Below are positions 26,348 to 40,397 of a stretch of DNA of 64,000 bases, piece after piece. The DNA comes from Natrinema halophilum (GTDB taxonomy: Archaea; Halobacteriota; Halobacteria; Halobacteriales; Natrialbaceae): positions 930,001-994,000 of the forward strand of contig NZ_CP058601.1 in assembly GCF_013402815.2 (NCBI RefSeq), in the 5' to 3' direction. Made by a program: the position numbers and the translations under genes. The notes beneath the pieces are model-generated. The model saw nothing but the letters and a program-made list of their open reading frames with translations, was not told where the DNA came from and did not search any database. Numbering within the stretch: position 1 is the stretch's first letter; the number at the start of each line of letters is the position of its first letter.

Positions 26348-27001
26348 TTACTTCTCCCGCGCAGCCTCGACCGCCTCGAGGAACGATGCAGCATTCTCCC
26401 GAATTCGATCGAAATCCCCCGCAGCGATGGCTTCGTCGTCGACGATCGCCCCGCCCGCACCGACTGCGACGGCACCGGCATCGAAGAACGCGGCGACGTT
26501 GTCGGGCGAGATGCCGCCCGTCGGAACGATGTCGACGTCACCCAGCGGTCCCGAGAGCGCACCGATGTGATCGGGGCCGACGGTCGATGCCGGGAACATT
26601 TTCAGAAGATCCGCGCCAGCCTCCATCGCAGTCACCGCCTCCGTGGGAGTCATGACGCCGGGCGCGACGAGGACGCCGTTTCGGTTACAGATCCGGACCA
26701 CGTCCGTCTCGGTATGTGGCGACACGACGAACGAGGCCCCCGCGTCGATTACGGACTCCGCAGTCGGTGCGTCGAGGACGGTTCCTGCGCCGACTATCGC
26801 ATCCGTGTCTGTGAGTTCTCGATCGACAGCGGATATCTTCTCCGCCGTGTGCGTCCCATCGGCTGTTATCTCGAGTGCGTCGACCCCTGCATCGTGGATT
26901 GCACGAGCCACCGGGACGATCCGTTCTTCGCTCACACCGCGGAGGACCGCGATGACACCGCTCTCGACGATCCGCTCCCTGAGTACGTGTTTCTCCGGCA
27001 T
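26348..27001 (-). CDS. 2-dehydro-3-deoxy-6-phosphogluconate (KDPG) aldolase
   Basis: A 217-residue class I aldolase of the Eda family: it splits KDPG into pyruvate and glyceraldehyde 3-phosphate, the last specific step of the semi-phosphorylative Entner-Doudoroff pathway. Motifs: VIAVLRG at the start, LEITADGTH with the catalytic Glu, VGAGTVLD, the Schiff-base Lys in LLKMFPAS, and VPTGGISPDN with the phosphate-binding loop. Length is standard. It sits next to TrmB and the glucan-degrading genes, consistent with glucose catabolism. KDPGal activity cannot be excluded. Confidence 0.92.
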   Translation of the reverse strand: MPEKHVLRERIVESGVIAVLRGVSEERIVPVARAIHDAGVDALEITADGTHTAEKISAVDRELTDTDAIVGAGTVLDAPTAESVIDAGASFVVSPHTETDVVRICNRNGVLVAPGVMTPTEAVTAMEAGADLLKMFPASTVGPDHIGALSGPLGDVDIVPTGGISPDNVAAFFDAGAVAVGAGGAIVDDEAIAAGDFDRIRENAASFLEAVEAAREK

Positions 27002-27116
27002 CAGTACTCGTCTCCACCGTCGTAGCGCTGTTTAACGGACGATACTCGATCCCCACTTGTCATCCGTCCCATCAGATCCGTGGGTAAGTTCATTACGACG
27101 GACGTTCGGGCCCACG

Positions 27117-27156: not shown

Positions 27157-28215
27157 CTACTCCGCCAGTTCGTCAATGGTGACCGATTCCGCCTCGTAGT
27201 CCTCGAGGAATGCGCCGGTTCCCCCGACCGTGTATCGCTCGCCGTCGACCTCGATCTCGAATGCGTTCTCGATCGGCAGCGTCGAGGTGACGGGCCGGAC
27301 CAGGCTCTGTCGCACGTCGACCACCTCCCCGGTGAGCGACGACGGAATGTCTCGGTCGCCGACCGGCGACCCGGTAACCGACGCTTCGATTCGCGTATCC
27401 GTCGCTCGGTGGAGCGCGATCTGGAAGACCGCGCTTCGAAATCGCTCGTACGTACAGGGAAGTTCGTTCGGGGTCGTCACGTATCGTTCCTCGGCGGTCG
27501 GCCAGTAGTTCGCCAGAAACGAGCCGGCGAGGACCGGAACGAGCTGATCCTGGGAGAGCGCGATGGCTCGCGTATCACTCGTCGACGTCGTCAGGATCTG
27601 ACTGGGCGCGAGCAGTCCGTGCTGGCCGTCGACCGTCAACATTGTCGGCACGAGCGCATCCCAGGTACGGACCGTACTGGCCGTCCCGGCCAGCGATGCG
27701 ATGTCCTGATCCCCCGAGGTCGCACCAAGCAGGAGAAGAACGAGTACGCCTCGGTCGACCGTCGCCTCGAGCGTCGACCGTATTCGCGGAAGGACCGCCG
27801 CCGGCAAGGAGAGGGTCACTTCCGTTTCAGCCCCCACTAACATGCTCTCGATTCGTTTGAGCACCGTCTGCCGAGACTTGATCACCTCGAACTGCTCGCC
27901 GGAGCGCTCGGTCGTCGTATACCGTGATTGGAGCGCTGGCTCGATCTCCTCGACGCTATCTGTGAGCCGCTCGACGACGGTCTCGGGTTGGATCGGACGT
28001 ATCACCGTCGGCACCGAATGATCGTCGACTTCGACGAAGCCGCGCCTCTCCAATTCCTCGCTGATGCTGTAGACGTATCGTTTCGATACGTCGGCGGCAT
28101 CGGCGATCGTGCTGGCTTTTGATTCCCCGTGTTCGAGGATCGCCAGATACGTATCAGTCTCTTTTTCTGAGAGACCGAACCGCTCGAGAAGCTCGGCTAG
28201 CTCGTCGTCATCCAT
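27157..28215 (-). CDS. TrmB family sugar-responsive transcriptional regulator
   Basis: A 352-residue TrmB-type regulator. Residues ~8-75 form the winged helix-turn-helix (LSEKETDTYLAILEHGESKASTIADAADVSKRYVYSISEELERRGFVEV, written here only to locate it by its ends: LSEKETDT and RGFVEV). A coiled linker and a large C-terminal TrmB sugar-binding domain follow (from IKSRQTVLKRIE to the end, with the conserved FEIEVDGERYTVGGTGAF near 320-340). TrmB proteins in archaea bind maltose or glucose and switch sugar-transport and glycolytic or gluconeogenic genes. Its place between the KDPG aldolase and glucoamylase genes suggests local control. A palindrome lies at its own start codon. Confidence 0.9.
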   Translation of the reverse strand: MDDDELAELLERFGLSEKETDTYLAILEHGESKASTIADAADVSKRYVYSISEELERRGFVEVDDHSVPTVIRPIQPETVVERLTDSVEEIEPALQSRYTTTERSGEQFEVIKSRQTVLKRIESMLVGAETEVTLSLPAAVLPRIRSTLEATVDRGVLVLLLLGATSGDQDIASLAGTASTVRTWDALVPTMLTVDGQHGLLAPSQILTTSTSDTRAIALSQDQLVPVLAGSFLANYWPTAEERYVTTPNELPCTYERFRSAVFQIALHRATDTRIEASVTGSPVGDRDIPSSLTGEVVDVRQSLVRPVTSTLPIENAFEIEVDGERYTVGGTGAFLEDYEAESVTIDELAE

Positions 28216-28216
28216 G

Positions 28217-28229
28217 TGTATTCAATACA
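28217..28229. promoter_or_regulatory. Candidate TrmB operator (13-bp palindrome)
   Basis: TGTATTCAATACA is a perfect 6-1-6 palindrome starting one base before the trmB ATG (28215, minus strand) in the divergent trmB/glucoamylase gap. Its half-site continues as AATACATCA, nearly the same as the AATACATGA boxes in the malE promoter. Position over the start of a presumably leaderless gene would suit autorepression. Confidence 0.4.
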
Positions 28230-28367
28230 TCAAAGATTGAGCTGACGGTCTAAAATATGCTTGGTCCGTGACTCCGATCGCTGCACGTCCGACTGGTCGG
28301 GAGACCATCGAGGGTGTATCACAGCCAGGTACCTGAAATGAAAAGTGAGAATAGATTTTTCAACAAA

Positions 28368-28374
28368 GTTTATT
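28368..28374 (+). promoter_or_regulatory. Candidate TATA box of the glucoamylase gene
   Basis: GTTTATT lies 22 bases before the ATG at 28397, in an AT-rich patch (28340-28375). The spacing implies a leaderless or nearly leaderless message and supports the short start over ATG 28373. Confidence 0.4.
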
Positions 28375-28396
28375 GCTCCGGGAGTGGTCTGTGAGA

Positions 28397-30445
28397 ATGA
28401 TGGAACTACATGGCGCCCTCAACGACTTCAAGCGCTCACAGGGAGACCCCCGACGGTTCCCAGGTGAGCGCAGGTCCACGACGGGACTCTTCTCCGGACT
28501 CGACGATCGGCTCGTTCACATCGCCCCCGATGGATCTAACAGGGACTATTCGTACCCGCTTTCGGGTTTGGCTGGTATCGAGCGCTCACGATTCGGGCTC
28601 GAAATAGACGGCACCGTCAGCTGGTTCGACGCCGACGACAGCCACCAACGCTACGTCGAGAACACCGCAGTCGTCGAGACCACGCATTCCGTCGACGGAT
28701 TGACCTGCAATCAATACGACGTCACGATCGGCCGACTCCACCTGACCCACTTTTCACTCGAGCAGGCAGCCGCGGCCGACGAAGATCTCAGCCTGCATGC
28801 CTGCTTCGAATTCGCTCCGGAAGGGCGTGCGGGGCGGATCGGTCAACTCTGGCACGGTGATGCAGTCGAGGTTCACCATGCTACCGAACATGATTTCCTC
28901 GCAGCCTCGACGGATCTATCCGTAACGGGGCAGGTCCCCGAACGCTTCGCCGAGTTACTCGCAGCGGAACCGGCCGACTTTCCGCGTTCTCAGACCGACG
29001 ATCGCTACGAGGAAGCGCGTCTCAGCCCGATCGTGATGACCGAACTGGAACTTCCGGGTTCGTCTCCGTGTACGACCATCGCGACGTTGCTCTCGGACGA
29101 CGGCAACCGAACCGACGCGCTCGAGCGCGTCCGAACCGCTGCGGCTGATCACGCCGAAAGCGAAGCCATACTCGAGGCGGGCCGCGAACAGGCCCACGAC
29201 CAGTTGATCGCATCGAGCCGTGGCATCGAAGGGGGGTTTACAGATCTCCGTGCGCTCGCGTTGTTACGCGCACCGACGGGTGCACGGATGGCTGGCCCCG
29301 AGTTCGACCCATTCTATCGATACTCCGGTGGCTACGGCTACACCTGGTTCCGCGACGACGCCGAAATCGCACGATTTCTCCTCACCGCCGATCTTCGGTT
29401 GGGGCTCGGTCTGGAGGAGTGGCACGCAAAGAGCGCTCGCTTTTACAGTGAGACGCAATTGGCCGACGGTACGTGGCCCCATCGGGTCTGGCCGCACAAC
29501 GGCGAACTCGCTCCCGGGTGGGCGCATGGTCGACTGGAAGAAGGCGAGTCCGAGGAGTATCAAGCGGACCAGACGGCGAGCGTGGCGGCGTTTCTCGCGA
29601 CGTACCTCAGCCACGTCGACCCCACCGATGAACGGGTACGGGAAACGCTCGTAGCCGCTCTCAATGGTCTGGACGAATCGCTCGACGACGACGGTCTTCC
29701 CGGAAGGGTTCAAAATGCGTGGGAGAACATGACCGGGCGGTTCGCACACACGGCCGCGACGTTCCTCGAGGCGTACGCGGCGATCGCTCGAGCACCGGTC
29801 GGCGACGCTCTCACCACGCGCGCTCGAGAACGCGCCCGGGACATCTATACCGCTCTGGACGATTTCTGGGTGCCCGAGCGCGGCGTTTACGGTATGCGCG
29901 TGGACGACGGTGACGTGGACGACCGACTGGACGGAAGTACGCTCGCCTTGGCTACGGCCCATCGGGAATACGACGCGCTCGAGAGCGTGGATGATGAACG
30001 GCTCGACCGCCTCGTCTCCCACGTCGAGACGACGCTCGACGGACTGTATCGGGACCCAGACGGACCGGTCAAAGGTCTCGCGCGTTTCGAGGGAGATCCA
30101 TGGCGAGTGCGTGAGCAGGGTGCCGAAAAGATCTGGACAGTGACGACGGCCTGGGGTGCTCACGCCGCCATCAATCTCAGCAAGTTACTGGCGGCCAACG
30201 GCTGCGAAGAAGCCGAGCGTTTCGAGGAGCGCGGGCGCACCCTGTTGGCGCTCGTCAGCCCTGGTGGCCCGCTTCGTCGACCCGGCGGATTCCTCCCCGA
30301 GCAACTGTTCGACGACGGAACACCCGACAGTGCAACGCCACTTGGGTGGCCCCACGCCATCCGGTTTGCGACGGAGAGCGCACTCGAGGCACCCGTTTCG
30401 TCGTCATTCGCGGATGCCACGGACCGCACTGGGGTGCAGAATTGA
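28397..30445 (+). CDS. Cytoplasmic GH15 glucoamylase (glucan 1,4-alpha-glucosidase)
   Basis: A 682-residue glycoside hydrolase family 15 enzyme that releases glucose from ends of maltodextrins. An N-terminal beta-sandwich (about 1-260) precedes the (alpha/alpha)6 barrel. Barrel landmarks: GGYGYTWFRDDAEIARFL, the ADQTASVAAFL region, NAWENMTGRFAHTAA with the general-acid Glu, and GFLPEQLFDDGTP with the catalytic-base Glu. There is no signal peptide, so substrate must be imported, fitting the nearby malEFGK transporter. Start at 28397 (or the next ATG at 28400). It is divergent from trmB. Confidence 0.92.
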   Translation: MMELHGALNDFKRSQGDPRRFPGERRSTTGLFSGLDDRLVHIAPDGSNRDYSYPLSGLAGIERSRFGLEIDGTVSWFDADDSHQRYVENTAVVETTHSVDGLTCNQYDVTIGRLHLTHFSLEQAAAADEDLSLHACFEFAPEGRAGRIGQLWHGDAVEVHHATEHDFLAASTDLSVTGQVPERFAELLAAEPADFPRSQTDDRYEEARLSPIVMTELELPGSSPCTTIATLLSDDGNRTDALERVRTAAADHAESEAILEAGREQAHDQLIASSRGIEGGFTDLRALALLRAPTGARMAGPEFDPFYRYSGGYGYTWFRDDAEIARFLLTADLRLGLGLEEWHAKSARFYSETQLADGTWPHRVWPHNGELAPGWAHGRLEEGESEEYQADQTASVAAFLATYLSHVDPTDERVRETLVAALNGLDESLDDDGLPGRVQNAWENMTGRFAHTAATFLEAYAAIARAPVGDALTTRARERARDIYTALDDFWVPERGVYGMRVDDGDVDDRLDGSTLALATAHREYDALESVDDERLDRLVSHVETTLDGLYRDPDGPVKGLARFEGDPWRVREQGAEKIWTVTTAWGAHAAINLSKLLAANGCEEAERFEERGRTLLALVSPGGPLRRPGGFLPEQLFDDGTPDSATPLGWPHAIRFATESALEAPVSSSFADATDRTGVQN

Positions 30446-30558
30446 TTGTCCGCATATCAGGAGTTGGCAAACGATTTCGTTATGCAGAATAGGAGTCGAA
30501 AACGCTGCAAAGCATGGGTCAGGTATGCAACACTCGGACTACGCAGCCTCCATCCAAA

Positions 30559-31200
30559 CTACTTCGTTATCCAATCGATGGCGTCTTCGGTTTTTTTGAC
30601 CGCGACGCCGATATTCTCTAGCTCTTGTACGCCTCGCTCGTAGACGCCAGATGTCGCGTCAGGCACGAAGACGATGCGGTAATCACGTTCGCTCGCCTCG
30701 TAGACTGTCGTCCGTGGACAGTTCGGGAAGTTACAGCCACATACGACGATGGTATCTATCGAGCGCACCTCGAGAAAGTCGTTCAGATATGTTCGATAGA
30801 ACGCACTCCAGCGGGGCTTGTACATCACATATTCCTGTGGACCGATCTCTTGGAACTTGCCGTCTAACAACCGGTCCGCGTTGAGGCGCACGCCTGTCGA
30901 GGGTTTCAATTCGGCGACCGGCTCTGCGCCGTCAGTCCCGGGGCGAACGACCTTCGCACCGGATTCGATATCCGATTTCCTGCACTGATCAACGTTCGAC
31001 CCGTCTTCTTTGTACAACCGGACGACGTGTACGATCGGAGTCTGCTGGGACCGGAAGGTTTCGACTAGTCGCTGGATCTGTGGCACCGCCTCGGCAGTTC
31101 CATCGATTTCAGCTGGGGCACCTGCCAACGTGAAGTCGTTTTGCGTGTCGATGGTGAGTAAGACTGCACTGTTCCGGTGAGGGCGAATGTATTCGTTCAT
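30559..31200 (-). CDS. Isochorismatase-like cysteine hydrolase
   Basis: A 213-residue hydrolase of the isochorismatase superfamily. The catalytic triad is visible: Asp in LLTIDTQNDFTL, Lys in YKPRWSAFY, and Cys in CGCNFPNCPRTTVYEASERDY. Relatives include nicotinamidases, N-carbamoylsarcosine amidases and biuret hydrolases; the substrate cannot be decided here. The double Cys near the nucleophile is unusual but not unique. It is convergent with the glucoamylase gene and 281 bases from the malK stop, a gap without features. Confidence 0.86.
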   Translation of the reverse strand: MNEYIRPHRNSAVLLTIDTQNDFTLAGAPAEIDGTAEAVPQIQRLVETFRSQQTPIVHVVRLYKEDGSNVDQCRKSDIESGAKVVRPGTDGAEPVAELKPSTGVRLNADRLLDGKFQEIGPQEYVMYKPRWSAFYRTYLNDFLEVRSIDTIVVCGCNFPNCPRTTVYEASERDYRIVFVPDATSGVYERGVQELENIGVAVKKTEDAIDWITK

Positions 31201-31481
31201 ACACTGATCTCCGGGTCCCCCATATTGAACGTACAGTACGTTTAATTCGCATCTATATTTACCGAATCCTTCGATTCAGTTTCAAAGCCATTCCGGAATA
31301 AAGAAACCGTTCTACTATCTACTGTTATACGTCCGATCCGAGGGTCTCCGTTCCGCAACGGTCGAATGAGGAGAACACGGTCGTAATAGCCACAGGTGCG
31401 CCCCAACCCAACTACGACGTGCGTCGAGCGAGGATGACGAGCTTCTCACACTCTCGCGTACCGGACGGTTTCCTTCTCGAC

Positions 31482-32618
31482 TCAAGACGTAACGGTGGGG
31501 GCGTCGGGTTTACTAGCAAAGACGTTGTGGCCCGTTTCGTGATCGAATAGGTGGATGTTCGATTCGTCGAACGTAAACGACACTCGGTCGCCCGGCTCGA
31601 GATACACGTCCGAGTCGACGCGCGCGATGAATTCGCTGTTGACGTCGAGATGGAGGAAGTTGTCGGAGCCGACGGGTTCGACCACGTCGATAGTCGCCGT
31701 GATCGAGTCAGCCGCTCCGGGGTCGACAAGAGTGACGTTCTCCGGCCGAATTCCGAGCGTATATCGACTCGAGTCGAGTGCGACCTCGCTATTGTTGACG
31801 TACGCCGGCGAGAGGTCGAAACTGAACCCGCCGTTTGCTCCGGTAAGGCGCAGTCGGGAACCAGTAGATTCGACGTCGACGTCGACGAAGTTCATCGACG
31901 GTGACCCGATAAAGCCGGCGACGAACTCGTTTACCGGGTTCTCGTAGACCTCGGTGGGTCGTCCCTGTTGCTGGAGTTCGCCGCCGTCGAGGATGACGAT
32001 TCGATCGCCCATCGTCATGGCTTCGTGTTGGTCGTGTGTCACGTAGACTGCCGTGATCTCGAGTTCGTTCTGAAGACGCTGGATCTCCGCTCGCATGCTC
32101 GTTCGAAGTTTCGCGTCGAGGTTACTGAGCGGTTCGTCGAACAGGAACAGATCGGGCTCTCTGACGATCGCGCGCCCGAGCGCGACGCGTTGTTTCTGCC
32201 CGCCAGAAAGTTCGTCCGGCTTGTCCTCGAGGAGATCCTCGATGTCCATCATTTCGGCCGATTCGACGACCCGTCGCTCGCGTTCGGTCTCGTTCAAGTC
32301 GGTACTCATCCGGAGCCCGAACTCCATGTTCTCAAAGACGGTCTTGTGTGGATACAACGCGTAGTTCTGGAACACCATCGCGACGTCTCTGTTTTTCGCA
32401 TGGACGTCCGTCACGTTCTCGTCACCGATCTTGATCGTTCCTGCCGTCGGTCGCTCGAGCCCCGCTAGCATCCTGAGCGTCGTCGTCTTGCCACAGCCCG
32501 ACGGACCGACCACCGTGACGAATTCGCCGTCTTCGATTTCGAGGGAAAGATCGTCGACGGCGACCACGTTGCCCGTGTCGAATTCTTTTCGTAGTGAGTT
32601 GACTGAGACCCGCGCCAT
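31482..32618 (-). CDS. malK: Sugar ABC transporter ATP-binding protein (MalK/MsmX type)
   Basis: A 378-residue ATPase of the CUT1 carbohydrate importers. Walker A GPSGCGKTTT, Q-loop VFQNYALYPH, signature LSGGQKQRVALGR, Walker B LFLFDEPLSNLD and the switch His in VTHDQHEA are all present. A C-terminal OB-fold regulatory domain follows (about 240-378, with LGIRPENV). It energises the MalFG channel. ATG 32618 (MARVSVNSL) is used; the 24 upstream residues are not conserved. It is divergent from malEFG, with 302 bases of shared regulatory DNA. Confidence 0.93.
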   Translation of the reverse strand: MARVSVNSLRKEFDTGNVVAVDDLSLEIEDGEFVTVVGPSGCGKTTTLRMLAGLERPTAGTIKIGDENVTDVHAKNRDVAMVFQNYALYPHKTVFENMEFGLRMSTDLNETERERRVVESAEMMDIEDLLEDKPDELSGGQKQRVALGRAIVREPDLFLFDEPLSNLDAKLRTSMRAEIQRLQNELEITAVYVTHDQHEAMTMGDRIVILDGGELQQQGRPTEVYENPVNEFVAGFIGSPSMNFVDVDVESTGSRLRLTGANGGFSFDLSPAYVNNSEVALDSSRYTLGIRPENVTLVDPGAADSITATIDVVEPVGSDNFLHLDVNSEFIARVDSDVYLEPGDRVSFTFDESNIHLFDHETGHNVFASKPDAPTVTS

Positions 32619-32650
32619 AGCATCACAATTATCGGGGAATGATAAAACAC

Positions 32651-32674
32651 TTTCCAAAAATCGATATTTGGGAA
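32651..32674. promoter_or_regulatory. Inverted repeat in the malK promoter
   Basis: Arms TTTCCAAA (32651-32658) and TTTGGGAA (32667-32674) are inverted, 7 of 8 matching, around an ATCGAT centre. They lie just upstream of a minus-strand TTTTAT box (about 32640-32646) that is 22-28 bases from the malK ATG. This is where a repressor or activator of malK would bind; the protein is not identified. Confidence 0.4.
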
Positions 32675-32854
32675 GTAATTTCTCATCCAATATTATGGCT
32701 CCCCGTTCGCCACACGCGTTGGAGATAGTCGAGACGATTCGACCGGTATCGCTTCCAAAGCACCCTATTTAGCGCGTTTATCGTGGGAAGAGAGTGTATC
32801 GAGTCGTGACTCGTCGATCGCATTGGCCGAAAAAACCATTGGTCCTTAGTTATG

Positions 32855-32894
32855 AATACATGACAATTCCGATCCCAAACTATTAAATACATGA
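32855..32894 (+). promoter_or_regulatory. malE promoter with two AATACATGA boxes
   Basis: AATACATGA occurs at 32855-32863 and 32886-32894, exactly 31 bp apart, about three helical turns. The second copy overlaps the TATA-like TATTAAATA (32881-32889) that is ~32 bases before the malE ATG. The boxes match the half-site of the palindrome at the trmB start in 8 of 9 bases. A short GAGG sits at 32914-32917 before the start. Together they look like a TrmB-controlled promoter. Confidence 0.45.
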
Positions 32895-32920
32895 AGATAT
32901 TATTCATCAATGATTGAGGC

Positions 32921-34120
32921 ATGACAATGCAACGCAGATCAGTGCTCAAAAGCATCGGTGGTGTCGCGGGTGGGGCAGCGCTTGCAGGGTGTACAGGCTT
33001 ATTCACCAGTGGTGGCAACGACGCGGCGTTGTGGCACGATTTCACCGACGCAGAGAAGGACACTGTCGACGGTTTCCTCGAGCAATTCAACGACGAGACC
33101 GATCACGAGATCGAAGCATCCAGCATCTCGAACCTGGGTGACCAGTTAGAGACTGCGCTCCCGTCAAACGATGGCCCGATGAGTTTCGCGTGGGCACACG
33201 ACTGGGTGGGAAAAGAACACGAGGATGGGAACCTGTACGACGCGACCGACGACATCGACGTCGACGTCGATTCGACGTATACGGAGGTCGCTGCCGGTGC
33301 GGTCAGGTGGGAGGACAACCTGTATGGGCTCCCCTACGGCGCGGAAACGACAGCGCTGTTGTACAACAAGGACCTGGTCGACGAGCCGCCGGAGACGGCC
33401 GACGAGATGGTTTCCATCATGGAACGCGTCGACACCGATTACGGTATCGCCTGTCCCGGCGAAGTGTACAACATCAGCGGGTACTTACAGGCGTTCGGTG
33501 GCGTCCTCTACGACGCCGGAGCCGACGATCTCGGCGTCGACTCCGACGAGGTCGTCGAAGGTCTCGAGTTCGCTCGAGACAATATCTACGAGCATTCCCC
33601 GGAGGACCTCCAAATTGACGGGAACGTCTCGGTGTTCCAGGACGGTAATGCGCCTTTCATTATTACCGGTCCGTGGAACATCAGCGGATTCAGTGATGCA
33701 GGAATCGACGTCGGTGTAACGACGTTGCCTGCACCGAACGGTGGCGAACCGACACCGTATACGGGTATCCAGATGTGGTACTTCACGTCTCGTCTCGGGG
33801 AAGCGGACGACGACGTATTCGACGCGACGACGGCGTGGGGAGAGTGGTACACGACGACCAAAGACGTAGCTACCACCAACGCCGAGGAGCATGCGTTGAT
33901 CCCCGTTCTCACCGAGGTCATCGAGGGTGGTGAACTCAGCGACCAGGTCAAATCGTTTAGCGATAGCGTGGAAATGGGAATGGCGATGCCGGCTAATTCG
34001 AAGATGGACGCCGTCTGGGCACCCGTCAAAAGCGCGATCCAGAACGTCGTTGGCTCGGGTAACGACCCACAATCGGAGTTAGAAAGCGCAGCCGAAGAGA
34101 TTCGAGGCAACTGGGGCTAA
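32921..34120 (+). CDS. malE: Maltodextrin-type ABC transporter substrate-binding lipoprotein
   Basis: A 399-residue extracellular solute-binding protein. It has a Tat signal with lipobox (QRRSVLKSIG...ALAGC; lipid-anchored Cys about residue 24) and a periplasmic-binding-protein family 1 body: FAWAHDWVGKEHEDGNLYD, YGLPYGAETTALLYNKDLV, and a C-terminal PANSKMDAVWAPVKSAIQ. It captures oligosaccharides outside the cell for MalFGK. Start ATG 32921 or 32927 (MQRRS), the latter better spaced from a GAGG site. First gene of the malEFG operon. Maltose versus another oligosaccharide is inferred from the neighbouring glucan enzymes. Confidence 0.92.
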   Translation: MTMQRRSVLKSIGGVAGGAALAGCTGLFTSGGNDAALWHDFTDAEKDTVDGFLEQFNDETDHEIEASSISNLGDQLETALPSNDGPMSFAWAHDWVGKEHEDGNLYDATDDIDVDVDSTYTEVAAGAVRWEDNLYGLPYGAETTALLYNKDLVDEPPETADEMVSIMERVDTDYGIACPGEVYNISGYLQAFGGVLYDAGADDLGVDSDEVVEGLEFARDNIYEHSPEDLQIDGNVSVFQDGNAPFIITGPWNISGFSDAGIDVGVTTLPAPNGGEPTPYTGIQMWYFTSRLGEADDDVFDATTAWGEWYTTTKDVATTNAEEHALIPVLTEVIEGGELSDQVKSFSDSVEMGMAMPANSKMDAVWAPVKSAIQNVVGSGNDPQSELESAAEEIRGNWG

Positions 34121-34144: not shown

Positions 34145-35086
34145 ATGTTTTCAAGTACGTCTGGAGACCTTTCAGATCGGGTCCAGGAGAGACTTCCATC
34201 CGGCACGAAGGACATCGGGATAGCGCTCGTCTTGCCAGGACTGGTCCTGTTTTCCTTGTTCATGCTATACCCGATCCTGTATCTCGTCTATCTGTCACTC
34301 ACCGATGCGAGTTCTGCGGGAGAAGTGATCGGTGGGGACTTATCAATAATATGGTTCCAAAACTACATCGAATTATTTTCCGAAGAGGCCTTTTGGCGAT
34401 CTCTCGGCATAACCTGGCTGTACGTCTTCGTGAGTCTCGCGATAAAGATCGTCATCACGCTCGCGATAGCGAACGTTCTCACTCACAATCGAGTAGTTTG
34501 GAAACGTTACATGCGTGCGATTATTATAATACCGATGGGGTTTCCACCGATCTTTACGATCTCGGTCTGGCGAGGTATATTTAGCCCGGCCAAGTTCGGA
34601 CCGGTTAACGTCATCCTGAGCAAACTGTTTCTTTCTCCAGTCCAGGTGAGCTGGATGGCGGATCGATGGGCCGCTTTCGGGGCGTACGTAATCACGGAAG
34701 CCTGGCTCGCGTATCCGTTTATGGTGATCATCACAGTCAGCGCGCTCCAGGACGTTCCGATGGAACTCCACGACGCAGCCAAAGTCGACGGTGCCGGTTA
34801 TTTCACCAGGTTTATCCACGTGACACTGCCGGCAATCAGGGGCCCGCTCATCTTCGCCTCGGTCCTCACCGCTGCCACATCGTTCCAGAATTTCCTGATT
34901 CCGTGGGTATTCAACGAAGGTGGACCCGGACGACAGAACGAATTACTCCTCGTCTATGGCTACCGAGAAGCCCTTAATTTCGGTAACTACGGCCCAGGAT
35001 CGGCGATCATGGTCGTCGCAATCGCGTTCATCGGACTGTTCATGTGGATAGCTGTCAAGAAAACGAACCTTGCTGAGGGGGTGTGA
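34145..35086 (+). CDS. malF: Sugar ABC transporter permease, MalF-like
   Basis: A 313-residue inner permease with six membrane segments and a soluble N-terminal tail. The EAA loop that contacts the ATPase is ELHDAAKVDGAGYFTRFIHV. Conserved LPAIRGPL follows. It forms the channel with the next gene. It starts 24 bases after malE, and its stop lies 4 bases before the malG ATG. Downstream and operon order malE-malF-malG is that of CUT1 systems. Confidence 0.92.
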   Translation: MFSSTSGDLSDRVQERLPSGTKDIGIALVLPGLVLFSLFMLYPILYLVYLSLTDASSAGEVIGGDLSIIWFQNYIELFSEEAFWRSLGITWLYVFVSLAIKIVITLAIANVLTHNRVVWKRYMRAIIIIPMGFPPIFTISVWRGIFSPAKFGPVNVILSKLFLSPVQVSWMADRWAAFGAYVITEAWLAYPFMVIITVSALQDVPMELHDAAKVDGAGYFTRFIHVTLPAIRGPLIFASVLTAATSFQNFLIPWVFNEGGPGRQNELLLVYGYREALNFGNYGPGSAIMVVAIAFIGLFMWIAVKKTNLAEGV

Positions 35087-35090
35087 TCAT

Positions 35091-35981
35091 ATGGGTAAAG
35101 TAACCGATACGATAGACGACATCGAAGCCGGTCGAAAAACCCCGTTAGATATCGTCAAAACGATCCTTACAACCGGATTGGCTATTGGAATGCTCCTCGT
35201 CCTCATGTTTCCGGTCTACTGGATCATCTCCGCTGCGCTATCCCCGGGACAGACACTAACGTCCTCCAAAAGCTTATTCGGTGACGTGTCCGCGTACAAT
35301 CTGGACGCGTTCGTCTGGGTCCTGGAAAACGAGAGATTCTACCGGGGGCTAAAGAACAGTCTGATAGTCGTCTCGGTGACGGTCATCGTCACGCTCGTCT
35401 TCTCGATTCCAGGGGCATACGCGCTTTCGCGGCGTGAGTTCCTCGGGCGACGAAACCTCCTCTACGGGTATATTTTGTTCACCCAGGTGGGTGCAGGCCT
35501 CTCGATTGCCGTGCTCATCGCACTCTACGCGTTGTTCTCGAGTTACGGGCTGACCGACAACCTGCTGGTTCTCGGCCTCTTCTACGGGGCAGGAGCGATC
35601 CCGTTCAATACGTGGCTGCTGAAAACGTTCATGGACAACATTCCCGTCTCGTACGAAGAAGCAGCCGTGGTCGACGGTGCCAGCCACTGGCAAGTCATTC
35701 GAGAGGTAATTCTTCCGCTCTCGAAGCCCGGAATCGCCGCCGTGCTGGTGTTCGCGTGGACTGCTGGCTGGAACGAGTTCATCGTCGCGCAAACGTTGAT
35801 CAACGATGCCGAACTCTATCCGCTGTCGGTAGAGTTGTACGGTCTCGTCGGCGACCAGGACACGAATTGGCGCCAGTTCTCCGCGTTCGCGCTCCTGTTT
35901 GCCATGCCTGTTGCACTGATCTACTTCTTTGCCCAGCGATACGTTGAGAGCGGCCTCTCCTTCGGTGGCATGGACGGTTGA
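35091..35981 (+). CDS. malG: Sugar ABC transporter permease, MalG-like
   Basis: A 296-residue permease with six membrane segments. The EAA loop is SYEEAAVVDGASHWQVIREV, followed by ILPLSKPGIAAV. The ATG at 35091 follows GAGGGGGTG, a clear ribosome site inside the end of malF, and gives MGKVTDTIDD; an upstream ATG at 35070 overlaps malF and is rejected. Last gene of the operon; the 190 bases after it hold no gene. Confidence 0.92.
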   Translation: MGKVTDTIDDIEAGRKTPLDIVKTILTTGLAIGMLLVLMFPVYWIISAALSPGQTLTSSKSLFGDVSAYNLDAFVWVLENERFYRGLKNSLIVVSVTVIVTLVFSIPGAYALSRREFLGRRNLLYGYILFTQVGAGLSIAVLIALYALFSSYGLTDNLLVLGLFYGAGAIPFNTWLLKTFMDNIPVSYEEAAVVDGASHWQVIREVILPLSKPGIAAVLVFAWTAGWNEFIVAQTLINDAELYPLSVELYGLVGDQDTNWRQFSAFALLFAMPVALIYFFAQRYVESGLSFGGMDG

Positions 35982-36673: not shown

Positions 36674-38737
36674 TCACTGACACTCGAGGATGACGACGGT
36701 TTCGACCGAAAGCGACCGTTTCCCCGAATCGTCGACACCGTCGGATACGTCCGTCTCGGTCAGGAGGTCGATGGGATCGACGGGTTCGTCGAGACAGACC
36801 GTGGCCGATCCCTCTCCGAAGTGATGCACGACTACGATGCGACGCCCGGTCACCTGCTCTGTGCGAGCGAACGCGACCGCCGCGTCGGTGTCCGTCTCGT
36901 ATTCGATGCGCTCGAGTCCAGCGTCGGCACGTAACGCCGGGTGCGATTTCCGAAGGTCGATCAGTCGCTGGTAGTACTCGAGGAGATCCTCGTCGAACGC
37001 GTTCCAGTTCATCGGGTCGCGCCGTCCCCTCACGCCGGTCTCCTGACCATAGTAGAGCATCGGCGAACCGGGAAGGGTGAACGTCACAGCACCGGCGGCC
37101 AGTTGTGCGTCTCGGCCGTAGGTACTGAGATATCGGTCCGTGTCGTGATTTTCGACGTACAATAGCCACCGGGAATCCGCATGTGCGCCTCGACGCTTTC
37201 GGTCGTCGATCGCCTCGAGAACGGCCTCGGCGGTCGTCGTATCCAGGCCCACTGCGGAATCAGTAAACTCGTCTGCCACTGCGCCATCTTGCTCCCCGGT
37301 CACTTCCCGCTCCTCAACGGACTCGTTCGCACCGTCTCCAGTAACCGACTCGCCCAATTGCTCGAGCGCGTCGTGGAGCACGTCGTCGTGGTGCATATGA
37401 AATCGTCCGCCACCCATTTCGACGTCGGAAGGGAGGGTCTCGTCCAGCAGGAAGAACTCGCTTTTCGTCCCCGTCAATCGGTCTGCGACCTCCGTCCAGA
37501 AGCTCAGGGGGACGCCCCAGGCGACGTCGGCCCGGAATCCGTCGACTTTGTCGGCCCAGAAGTCGACGACTTCGAGGAGGTATTCCCGGACCTCGGGATT
37601 GCTGTAGTTCAGATTTGGAATGTCGTCCCAGCCGAAGTAGGTGTCTGCGTCTCCGTCGTCGAAATCCGCCCAGCGGTACCAGTCGCGGTACCGCTCGTGA
37701 TCTGGATGCGTTTCGTCGACGGCGGCCTCGAAGAAGGGATGCGAATCCGAGGTGTGGTTGATGACGAGGTCGAAGACGACCCTGATATCGCGGTCGTGGC
37801 ACGCATCGACCAGCGCCTCGAGGTCCGACATCGTTCCAAGGTCCGGATCGACGCTGAAGTAATCCGTCGTGTCGTACCCGTGGGGGCCACCGTGCTCCAT
37901 CGGCGTCCCGAAACCGCTCTCGGCGTCGAGAAACGGCGTCAGCCAGAGGACGTCGATCCCGAGGTGCTCGAGGTGGTCGAGGCGATCAGTGATGGTCTCG
38001 AATGTAGGGTCCTCTTGATCCGGGAACCGACGGGTGAAAATTTCGTACACGATCGCGTCGACGGCCCACTCCGGCGGTTCGAAGGGGCGTTCGACAGTGA
38101 TAGTCGGTCCGTCCGTCCGGTCACTGTCCGGTACCAGATCGATCGCATCCGGAACGGAGTGTCGCTCGTCCACTGCGACGGCGTAGACCCGGACCGGCTC
38201 GTCGATCGCACTAACCGGGAACGTACTGTCGGTCTCGAGTACGTCCGCATTCCGATCGTCGACGTAGAACTCGACTGCTGGATCACCGTCGCCGACGACG
38301 GTCGCCGTCGCCGAAAGGTGTACCTTCGTTTTGCTGACCGTGGCGTCGAGTTCGACCTGCGGTCGCGGCTCGGTCTCGTCTACTTCGGGAAACGCACGAA
38401 CCGTCAGTTCGTGGGTACCATCCGGAGCCTCGAGCGCCAGGGTGTACTCACCTGGGGGGGGAGGCTCGAACTCCGCGACTGGTCCGTCCGTCGGTGTCGC
38501 GCTCGATCCGTTGGGCGACTCGAGTACCCGCCAGGTGTACGTCCCATCGGCGTCCGGGTTCCACGGCGCGAGATCGTCGCGCGTTTCCATCTCGTTCCCG
38601 TTCGGGTCCACGATCCCCTCCTCAACGGTGACAAATCTGGGCGGACCGGGATGGTGAGAGCCATCACCGCTTTCAAACGAGTGCTCGGGCTCGGTCTCAC
38701 CGCCATCTGCGAGGGCCCGTCGATCGTCCCTGTTCAT
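36674..38737 (-). CDS. Cytoplasmic GH13 alpha-amylase family enzyme
   Basis: A 687-residue alpha-glucan hydrolase. An acidic N-terminal part with Ig-like beta domains (residues ~1-225) precedes the TIM barrel (from AVDAIVYEIFTRRFPD). Conserved GH13 regions: DLVINH (I), GFRADVAWG with the nucleophile Asp (II), FFLLDETLP with the acid/base Glu (III), and VENHDTDR with the transition-state Asp (IV). An insertion between regions III and IV is rich in Glu and Asp. No signal peptide is seen, so it acts on imported maltodextrins, alongside the GH15 enzyme and malEFGK. Exact specificity (amylase, cyclomaltodextrinase, neopullulanase) is not readable. Confidence 0.9.
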   Translation of the reverse strand: MNRDDRRALADGGETEPEHSFESGDGSHHPGPPRFVTVEEGIVDPNGNEMETRDDLAPWNPDADGTYTWRVLESPNGSSATPTDGPVAEFEPPPPGEYTLALEAPDGTHELTVRAFPEVDETEPRPQVELDATVSKTKVHLSATATVVGDGDPAVEFYVDDRNADVLETDSTFPVSAIDEPVRVYAVAVDERHSVPDAIDLVPDSDRTDGPTITVERPFEPPEWAVDAIVYEIFTRRFPDQEDPTFETITDRLDHLEHLGIDVLWLTPFLDAESGFGTPMEHGGPHGYDTTDYFSVDPDLGTMSDLEALVDACHDRDIRVVFDLVINHTSDSHPFFEAAVDETHPDHERYRDWYRWADFDDGDADTYFGWDDIPNLNYSNPEVREYLLEVVDFWADKVDGFRADVAWGVPLSFWTEVADRLTGTKSEFFLLDETLPSDVEMGGGRFHMHHDDVLHDALEQLGESVTGDGANESVEEREVTGEQDGAVADEFTDSAVGLDTTTAEAVLEAIDDRKRRGAHADSRWLLYVENHDTDRYLSTYGRDAQLAAGAVTFTLPGSPMLYYGQETGVRGRRDPMNWNAFDEDLLEYYQRLIDLRKSHPALRADAGLERIEYETDTDAAVAFARTEQVTGRRIVVVHHFGEGSATVCLDEPVDPIDLLTETDVSDGVDDSGKRSLSVETVVILECQ

Positions 38738-38933
38738 CGTCCCTCGCGAGTCGCCAATCGATCCGTTCGCCAGTTCACGGGCCTCATACCTGTCCGTGGA
38801 ATGAAGTTGTGGTGTAATACCATACTTCGATTGGAGTAGTCCGGCATATCGGCGGCTTGCTGGCGGCCCTCGTCAGTGAGCCCGAAGCCCCTCATTTTCG
38901 CTGAAGGCCGGCATCCCTCGGGGTAAAGGGGCG

Positions 38934-40172: not shown

Positions 40173-40397
40173 GAACATTCATTCACTCTCATCATAGTAA
40201 TAGTTTTCACCTTTCCTAGGCAAGTGTCGTAGTCGCCTATACTCATGAACCGAACGCGGACTCGAGAGCGGGAGTGATACTCGTCGGTACCGTAAACGAA
40301 CGCTGCAACGGCTGTAAACGAAAGTGATGAAAGCCTGTACGAGGCTATACGAAAAATAGTTCGCTCAGACCCGTAGTCCGCTCAAATCAGTATCTGC

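Follow-up and report, generated by a model that had tools for sequence, protein, structure and literature searches.

A predicted inverted-repeat operator for a TrmB paralogue in the maltose/starch cluster of Natrinema halophilum

Which DNA element is recognised by the TrmB-type regulator encoded beside a maltose-type importer of Natrinema halophilum, and which genes might it control? In this study, we analyzed a stretch of 64,000 nucleotides from this archaeon (contig NZ_CP058601.1 of assembly GCF_013402815.2, our G000:C1:930001-994000 of the 4.84-Mb genome; hereafter the window). The cluster has the order kdgA (-), trmB (-), gluA (+, glucoamylase-like), an isochorismatase-like gene (-), ugpC/malK (-), malE-malF-malG (+), alpha-amylase (amy, -) and gad (-), and its trmB shows 90-92% identity to the closest named relatives, from Natrinema and Haloterrigena. 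Comparison of these promoters suggests that the cluster is probably a maltose/starch regulon under a dedicated TrmB paralogue, with an inverted-repeat operator of about 20 base pairs (bp) at malE, ugpC, amy and the start of trmB itself. A preliminary description of the same DNA had proposed a different element, built on AATACAT, as the link between trmB, the glucoamylase gene and malE.

Inverted repeats in the promoters of the cluster

The analysis covered 25 named loci around trmB orthologues and 60 loci from family genomes, many of the genomes overlapping. The promoter set consisted of 63 loci (the 60 family loci, named loci L037 and L038, and the window), and genome scans were run on a family set of 125 genomes. 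We used tblastn to locate gene starts, and TATA boxes were assigned by eye. The predicted operators of the window, together with the malE TATA box and a conserved block at gluA, are as follows.

28213-28233, minus strand: trmB operator TTGATGTA-TTGAA-TACACATG, overlapping the start codon; score 9.5 with the amy-trained motif described below, at spacer 5
28347-28366, plus strand: conserved gluA block GAGAATAGATTTTTCAACAA, directly 5' of the presumed TATA box and kept in relatives; a possible divergent operator
32670-32689, minus strand: ugpC operator TGGATGAGAAATTACTTCCC, degenerate in the window; many relatives have TTGGTGTA-N4-TACTTCTC at -74
32883-32889, plus strand: malE TATA box TTAAATA, of which TAAATA is conserved in malE promoters; its role as TATA box is suggested by position
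32891-32910, plus strand: malE operator ATGAAGAT-ATTA-TTCATCAA, between TATA box and start codon
38809-38828, minus strand: amy operator GAAGTATG-GTAT-TACACCAC, with a strong right and a decayed left half; own motif score 10.2

The sequences of the sites, their conservation and their fixed positions were obtained directly by computation. In close loci, the sequence preceding the malE ATG is TTAAATATATGAAGATATAATTCATCAC with little or no change: a TATA box followed immediately by the repeat RTGAA-N7-TTCATCAC, of which the window version is ATGAAGATATTATTCATCAA. When the pattern ATGAAGATATNATTCATCA was searched with up to two mismatches, we found 46 matches in 42 of the 125 family genomes, as against three for the reversed control, and inspection of all 46 revealed malE directly downstream in 37 (26 of 30 plus 11 of 16). 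Using pattern matches and promoters that were read, the operator was recognised in 58 of the 59 genomes in which malE was found (E <= 1e-45), with degenerate versions in G001, G006 and G120; this count leaves out a second malE match in G115. All 59 malE-containing genomes also carried a trmB match (E <= 1e-60). Of the 68 genomes with a trmB match, 59 have malE, as opposed to none of the 57 genomes that lack such a match. The operator was even kept where the two genes are unlinked: in G001 and G006 distances of ~786 and 805 kb separate them on a single contig, and the operator scored 7.9 in both, compared with a maximum of -1.6 in shuffles; in G086 and G089-G092 they are on different contigs of draft assemblies. 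Within the genome of the window, further copies of the malE operator were limited to three places, each with three mismatches, as against three control matches.

In relatives, the sequence right in front of the TATA word of the amy promoters also forms an inverted repeat, whose best form is GTGGTGTA-N4-TACACCAC. Sixteen amy sites, picked solely by their position before this word and not including that of the window, served to train a symmetric motif; the amy promoters of L123 and L130 have no TATA word and so are not in the training set. The resulting motif, GTGRTGTA-N4-TACAYCAC, was applied to other promoters in three versions of a test. In the third version, the position was fixed relative to the ATG, motifs with permuted columns served as the comparison (spacer and position being maximised for those too), and loci were split into close and distant ones. 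Among close loci, 1 of 1000 permuted motifs was as good at malE (33 loci, -30), 8 at ugpC (32 loci, -74) and 7 at trmB (47 loci, -18, spacer 5), as opposed to 290, 581, 253 and 233 for the controls gad, kdgA, malF and malG. Among distant loci, the numbers were 51 for malE (4 loci) and 76 for ugpC (13 loci). For gluA, 20 of 1000 were as good in 14 distant loci and 381 of 1000 in 40 close ones. In the second version, in which the position was free, we obtained 0/500 for malE and ugpC, and 2/500 (spacers 4 and 5) or 8/500 (spacer 4) for trmB. In the first version, which relied on 18 amy sites picked with the consensus, all loci and a sharper motif, the positional statistic was 0/400 for malE and 2/400 for trmB, and the best-score statistic was 0/400 for ugpC.

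Because of these results across the three versions, malE and trmB appear to be the firmest sites, ugpC is partly backed, with support from its best score and in close loci, and gluA is a possible site. The glucoamylase gene was dropped as a proven member, the motif fitting distant loci and not close ones. In the window, malE scored 5.3 with the amy-trained motif, and ugpC and gluA scored poorly. The exact amy palindrome TGGTGTANNNNTACACCA was detected in 5 of the 125 genomes (control, 0), in four of them by position at amy promoters; within 3 kb of the fifth copy (L164) no mal gene was recognised.

Whether the trmB site goes with a malE nearby was also considered; the association is not clean, since the site is kept in several loci that have no malE next to trmB. 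As a separate observation, the distant trmB genes of L136, L140, L141, L143 and L144 have no operator at the start and have in common an upstream block resembling CAGAACACTCATTG, perhaps another promoter element.

A TrmB paralogue and two types of element

The regulator is encoded at the following place.

27157-28215, minus strand: trmB paralogue of the mal cluster, with DNA-binding domain 10-78 and sugar-binding domain 109-348

The window TrmB scored 59.9 bits on PF01978 and 177.2 bits on PF11495, both above the curated cut-offs. On NF047392 (TransRegTrmBHalo) it reached 140.8 bits against a cut-off of 500, and the equivalog TrmB of this genome (L083, G000:C1 at ~469 kb) had 600.2 bits on this model. 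The window TrmB is a paralogue of the Halobacterium-type TrmB. The recognition-helix stretch SKRYVYS is shared without change by all 63 sequences, that of the window among them, down to ~50% overall identity, and is specific to this clade: in the same stretch, the Halobacterium-type paralogue of this genome carries PQPRVYD and another paralogue SSSRIYD. According to the available part of one article, TrmB of Pyrococcus furiosus contacts DNA through Tyr50 and Asp51 (PMC4158304). The Tyr50 equivalent was kept in all 63 sequences, whereas the Asp51 equivalent was Ser in all 63; both paralogues of this genome keep Asp. In a phmmer alignment to 3qph, the equivalents of the sugar contacts Asn305, Gly320 and Glu326 were kept in 62, 63 and 63 of 63, respectively, those of Met321 and Val324 differed, and that of Ile325 was mostly Leu. 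The available text of a Haloarcula study describes Asn305 as not conserved outside hyperthermophiles (PMC10817205); by alignment, the clade of the window TrmB is an exception.

The maltose/trehalose repressor TrmB of Thermococcus litoralis and P. furiosus and the window TrmB have the same two-domain architecture, and they resemble each other in further respects. The gene adjoins a maltose-type ATP-binding cassette (ABC) importer in the window (trmB-gluA-ugpC-malEFG), some relatives having malE elsewhere; repression at malE by a core-promoter palindrome is predicted here; and four of the contact residues mentioned above (Tyr50, Asn305, Gly320 and Glu326) have equivalents in the window clade. 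However, the Asp51 position is replaced by Ser, and the window protein reached 50.8 bits on NF040851, whose cut-off is 600. The Thermococcales operator, given as TACT-N3-AGTA in the accessible text (PMC4158304), was absent from the 63 trmB, 54 gluA, 46 ugpC, 37 malE and 19 amy promoters on the sense strand, which was the strand used for all promoter counts of this motif, of TGM and of the Halobacterium box. The TrmBL1/Tgr motif TGM is reported in the same partial source as TATCAC-N5-GTGATA (PMC4158304). Like the predicted operator, it is an inverted repeat of comparable length whose halves each contain an ATCAC/GTGAT word, but CAC lies inside in TGM and outside in the window operator, so that the half-sites face opposite ways. 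TGM was not found in the promoters of the set, and the window TrmB had 69.7 bits on NF047390, compared with 650.

Halobacterium salinarum VNG1451C and Haloarcula hispanica HAH_1548 have the same Pfam domains and are haloarchaeal sugar regulators; the window TrmB is another member of the family. As far as the available text goes, haloarchaeal genomes have an average of three sugar-domain TrmBs, of which only VNG_1451C had been characterised before the HAH_1548 study, and H. hispanica trmB2, trmB3 and trmB4 (HAH_2795, HAH_1557 and HAH_0923) are sugar-domain paralogues without a characterised function (PMC10817205). One of these three may be the orthologue of the window TrmB. The genome of the window has a third sugar-domain TrmB (L082, G000:C1:3321000-3340999), 25% identical to that of the window, with ABC transporter genes and, by eye, a glycoside hydrolase family 3 (GH3)-like glycosidase nearby.

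The box of VNG1451C, TACT-N7-8-GAGTA according to the accessible part of PMC3794607, had been described as missing from this DNA. It is present: one exact copy lies at 38823-38838, and a copy with one mismatch is located at gad.

40184-40199, minus strand: Halobacterium-type TrmB box TACTATGATGAGAGTG of gad, a separate element that we would assign to the other TrmB

Of 34 gad promoters, 20 carry the form TACT-N7/8-RAGTR at -21 or -22, shortly before the start of the gene (the window, with one mismatch to the published form, L085-L099, L125, L126, L128 and L130). This looser form occurred in 0/63 trmB, 0/54 gluA, 0/46 ugpC, 1/33 malE and 1/19 amy promoters, and the published form in none of the 63 trmB, 54 gluA, 46 ugpC and 37 malE promoters. 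When both strands of the window and of the 25 named loci were scanned, TACT-N7-8-GAGTA was likewise not found at the trmB, gluA, ugpC and malE promoters. Exact copies occur in 3 of 37 kdgA promoters. The copy at 38823-38838 is limited to the amy promoter of the window, which is the single case among the 19, and 17 of 100 shuffles also had at least one exact copy. Since the box sits at gad and at none of the trmB, gluA and ugpC promoters, two TrmB-type elements appear to divide the cluster, presumably one for each TrmB protein. As the window TrmB is a paralogue, the Halobacterium box was the wrong one to expect for it.

Two insulated TrmB circuits may therefore exist in one cluster: a Halobacterium-type TrmB acting on gad via TACT-N7-8-GAGTA, and a paralogue with a rewired helix (SKRYVYS, Asp to Ser) acting on the importer, the amylase gene and its own gene via a new, outward-facing GTGRTGTA-N4/5-TACAYCAC, with a malE operator that outlasted strong divergence or replacement of the sugar-binding protein encoded downstream of it. 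In our estimate, the case for and against this extended scheme is evenly balanced. No description of the operator was found in the literature covered (titles and the beginnings of abstracts, with subscription papers mostly outside the coverage). Another TrmB clade gains predicted target genes, a predicted operator, a proposed inducer and a clear-cut difference in its recognition helix, and would represent a clean case of specificity change in a duplicated archaeal regulator.

Proposed mode of action and competing explanations

We infer that the window TrmB is the protein that binds the repeats and that it represses rather than activates, and we infer the identity of its inducer likewise. A TrmB dimer would bind the inverted repeat GTGRTGTA-N4(5)-TACAYCAC at malE, ugpC, amy and its own start. 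Because the malE site occupies the space separating the TATA box from the start codon, while the trmB site covers the start codon itself, bound TrmB would be expected to block polymerase recruitment or initiation at these two genes, a placement that suits repression and autorepression. The amy site abuts the TATA box and would lie over the place of the transcription factor B recognition element (BRE). At ugpC, ~20 bp (by eye) separate the end of the site from the presumed TATA box downstream, and the site might activate. Maltose or maltodextrin in the sugar-binding domain would then release TrmB. P. furiosus TrmB, in the available part of the source, blocks polymerase recruitment at malE and is released by maltose or trehalose (PMC4158304). 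In Haloarcula, the accessible text places the sites of TrmB-repressed genes over the BRE, with one exception, and those of activated genes generally upstream (PMC10817205).

The earlier proposal had suggested that TrmB represses itself and the importer. Our comparison agrees in pointing to a common site that is not of Halobacterium type, but the element is not AATACATGA, which had been taken as a direct TrmB box, repeated twice 31 bp apart at malE; we regard that reading as highly improbable. The strings themselves are as reported. The palindrome TGTATTCAATACA is on the plus strand at 28217-28229, immediately upstream of the trmB ATG (28215, minus strand), two copies of AATACATGA occur within 40 bp before malE (32855-32863 and 32886-32894, 31 bp from start to start), and the trmB half-site AATACATCA has 8 of 9 bases of AATACATGA. 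Moreover, AATACAT is found five times in the 64 kb, about three times the shuffle density (mean 1.66), and 3 of 100 shuffles reach five copies. However, of the 37 malE promoters, that of the window is the only one with AATACATGA in the 250 bp before the gene; the upstream copy at 32855 has no counterpart in relatives, which at the place of the second copy read, for example, AATATATGA or AATACGTGA. The tandem arrangement was rejected for this lack of conservation, and because it is not conserved in related species, AATACATGA is not the element. Its genome-wide frequency also counts against it, with 15 copies in 4.84 Mb as compared with nine for the reversed control. At trmB starts, the exact palindrome TGTATTNAATACA is unique to the window (1 of 63), and without mismatch it has a single place in the genome. 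As for the proposed link to the glucoamylase gene, the gluA promoter of the window reads AATAGAT, and AATACAT is present in 22 of the 54 gluA promoters of the set. Among the 36 other malE promoters, eight contain AATACAT, seven at -27 and/or -20, inside the operator, and one at -222. The likeness is a by-product: at trmB, the reported palindrome is the core of the operator, and at malE, the second copy, which had been placed over the TATA box, begins with the last four TATA-box bases and continues into the first bases of the operator. A wrong motif has thus been corrected before its use in annotation.

The operator could also be real and read by another transcription factor, with TrmB just a neighbour. 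This we consider unlikely, although neighbourhood and co-occurrence are no proof of binding, and distant loci lack the trmB start site and Natronococcus-type loci have an eroded one, while the gluA and malE blocks persist. On the other side, the absence of malE from all 57 genomes that lack this trmB, a pair that goes together even when unlinked, an invariant TrmB recognition helix and the lack of a regulator domain in the nine other cluster proteins scanned (a subset of the reading frames) all favor TrmB. It seems less probable still that the conserved blocks are simply core promoter (BRE, TATA and initiator) that look alike through common A+T-rich words. The malE and amy blocks do adjoin the TATA box, but the motif obtained from amy is an extended inverted repeat that lies outside it and recurs at three other genes and not at four controls, and 37 of the 46 matches to the malE site are at malE.

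Several results weigh against a regulon under the dedicated paralogue. With respect to the sample, orthologous promoters and genomes are not independent, shared descent makes the malE/trmB co-occurrence count weaker than its Fisher value would indicate, and the trmB matches of G077, G093 and G094, at only 40-41% identity, may represent other paralogues. G096 (L184) has malE and trmB but no recognised operator, the sole case among the 59. The three test versions are not in full agreement: the ugpC positional statistic was 203/400 in the first, and in the second the control kdgA also gave 8/500, equal to trmB at spacer 4 alone. In addition, all promoters had been inspected before testing, with the training sites chosen without the tested ones. 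The 15 distant loci had no trmB site (851 of 1000 permuted motifs did as well as the trained one), and in five Natronococcus-type loci (L106-L108, L116 and L119) the site appeared eroded by eye. Most sites in this genome are weaker than those of relatives; the left half of the amy site is lost, and the best motif match at ugpC is at a different place from the operator. A whole-genome consensus scan with up to three mismatches found 29 places, none at these promoters, as against 16 for the control, and a genome-wide regulon based on the consensus was rejected for this genome. Finally, because the distances to the presumed TATA boxes differ, one mode of action for all sites is not implied.

Neighbouring genes

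The other genes annotated in the cluster are given below.

28400-30445, plus strand: glucoamylase-like protein of glycoside hydrolase family 15 (GH15) type; PF00723 and TIGR01577 both below cut-off
31482-32618, minus strand: ugpC/malK-type ATPase of the sugar importer; PF00005, OB_MalK, and NF008653 above cut-off
32921-34120, plus strand: malE-type maltodextrin-binding protein; PF13416, best solved relative 1elj, a maltodextrin-binding protein (E 7.9e-61)
34145-35981, plus strand: malF and malG permeases; PF00528 twice
36674-38737, minus strand: alpha-amylase/maltodextrinase-like (MalA-like) protein; PF00128, with 569.1 bits on NF041321 (alpha-amylase MalA), below the cut-off of 875

The malE gene of the window is ~45% identical to malE of the Natrinema loci whose trmB is 90-92% identical, with an almost unchanged promoter, and four close loci (L087-L089 and L097) have a malE version at 64-65% identity. 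The isochorismatase-like gene (30559-31200, minus strand), located between gluA and ugpC, had no match in the 25 named loci (E <= 1e-20). At the other end of the cluster, the stop of a 30-codon frame (27001-27093, minus strand) overlaps the kdgA start (TGATG), which may reflect a leader peptide or chance. A frame overlapping the kdgA start was open in 33 of 37 kdgA loci, and the peptides were alike among close relatives only.

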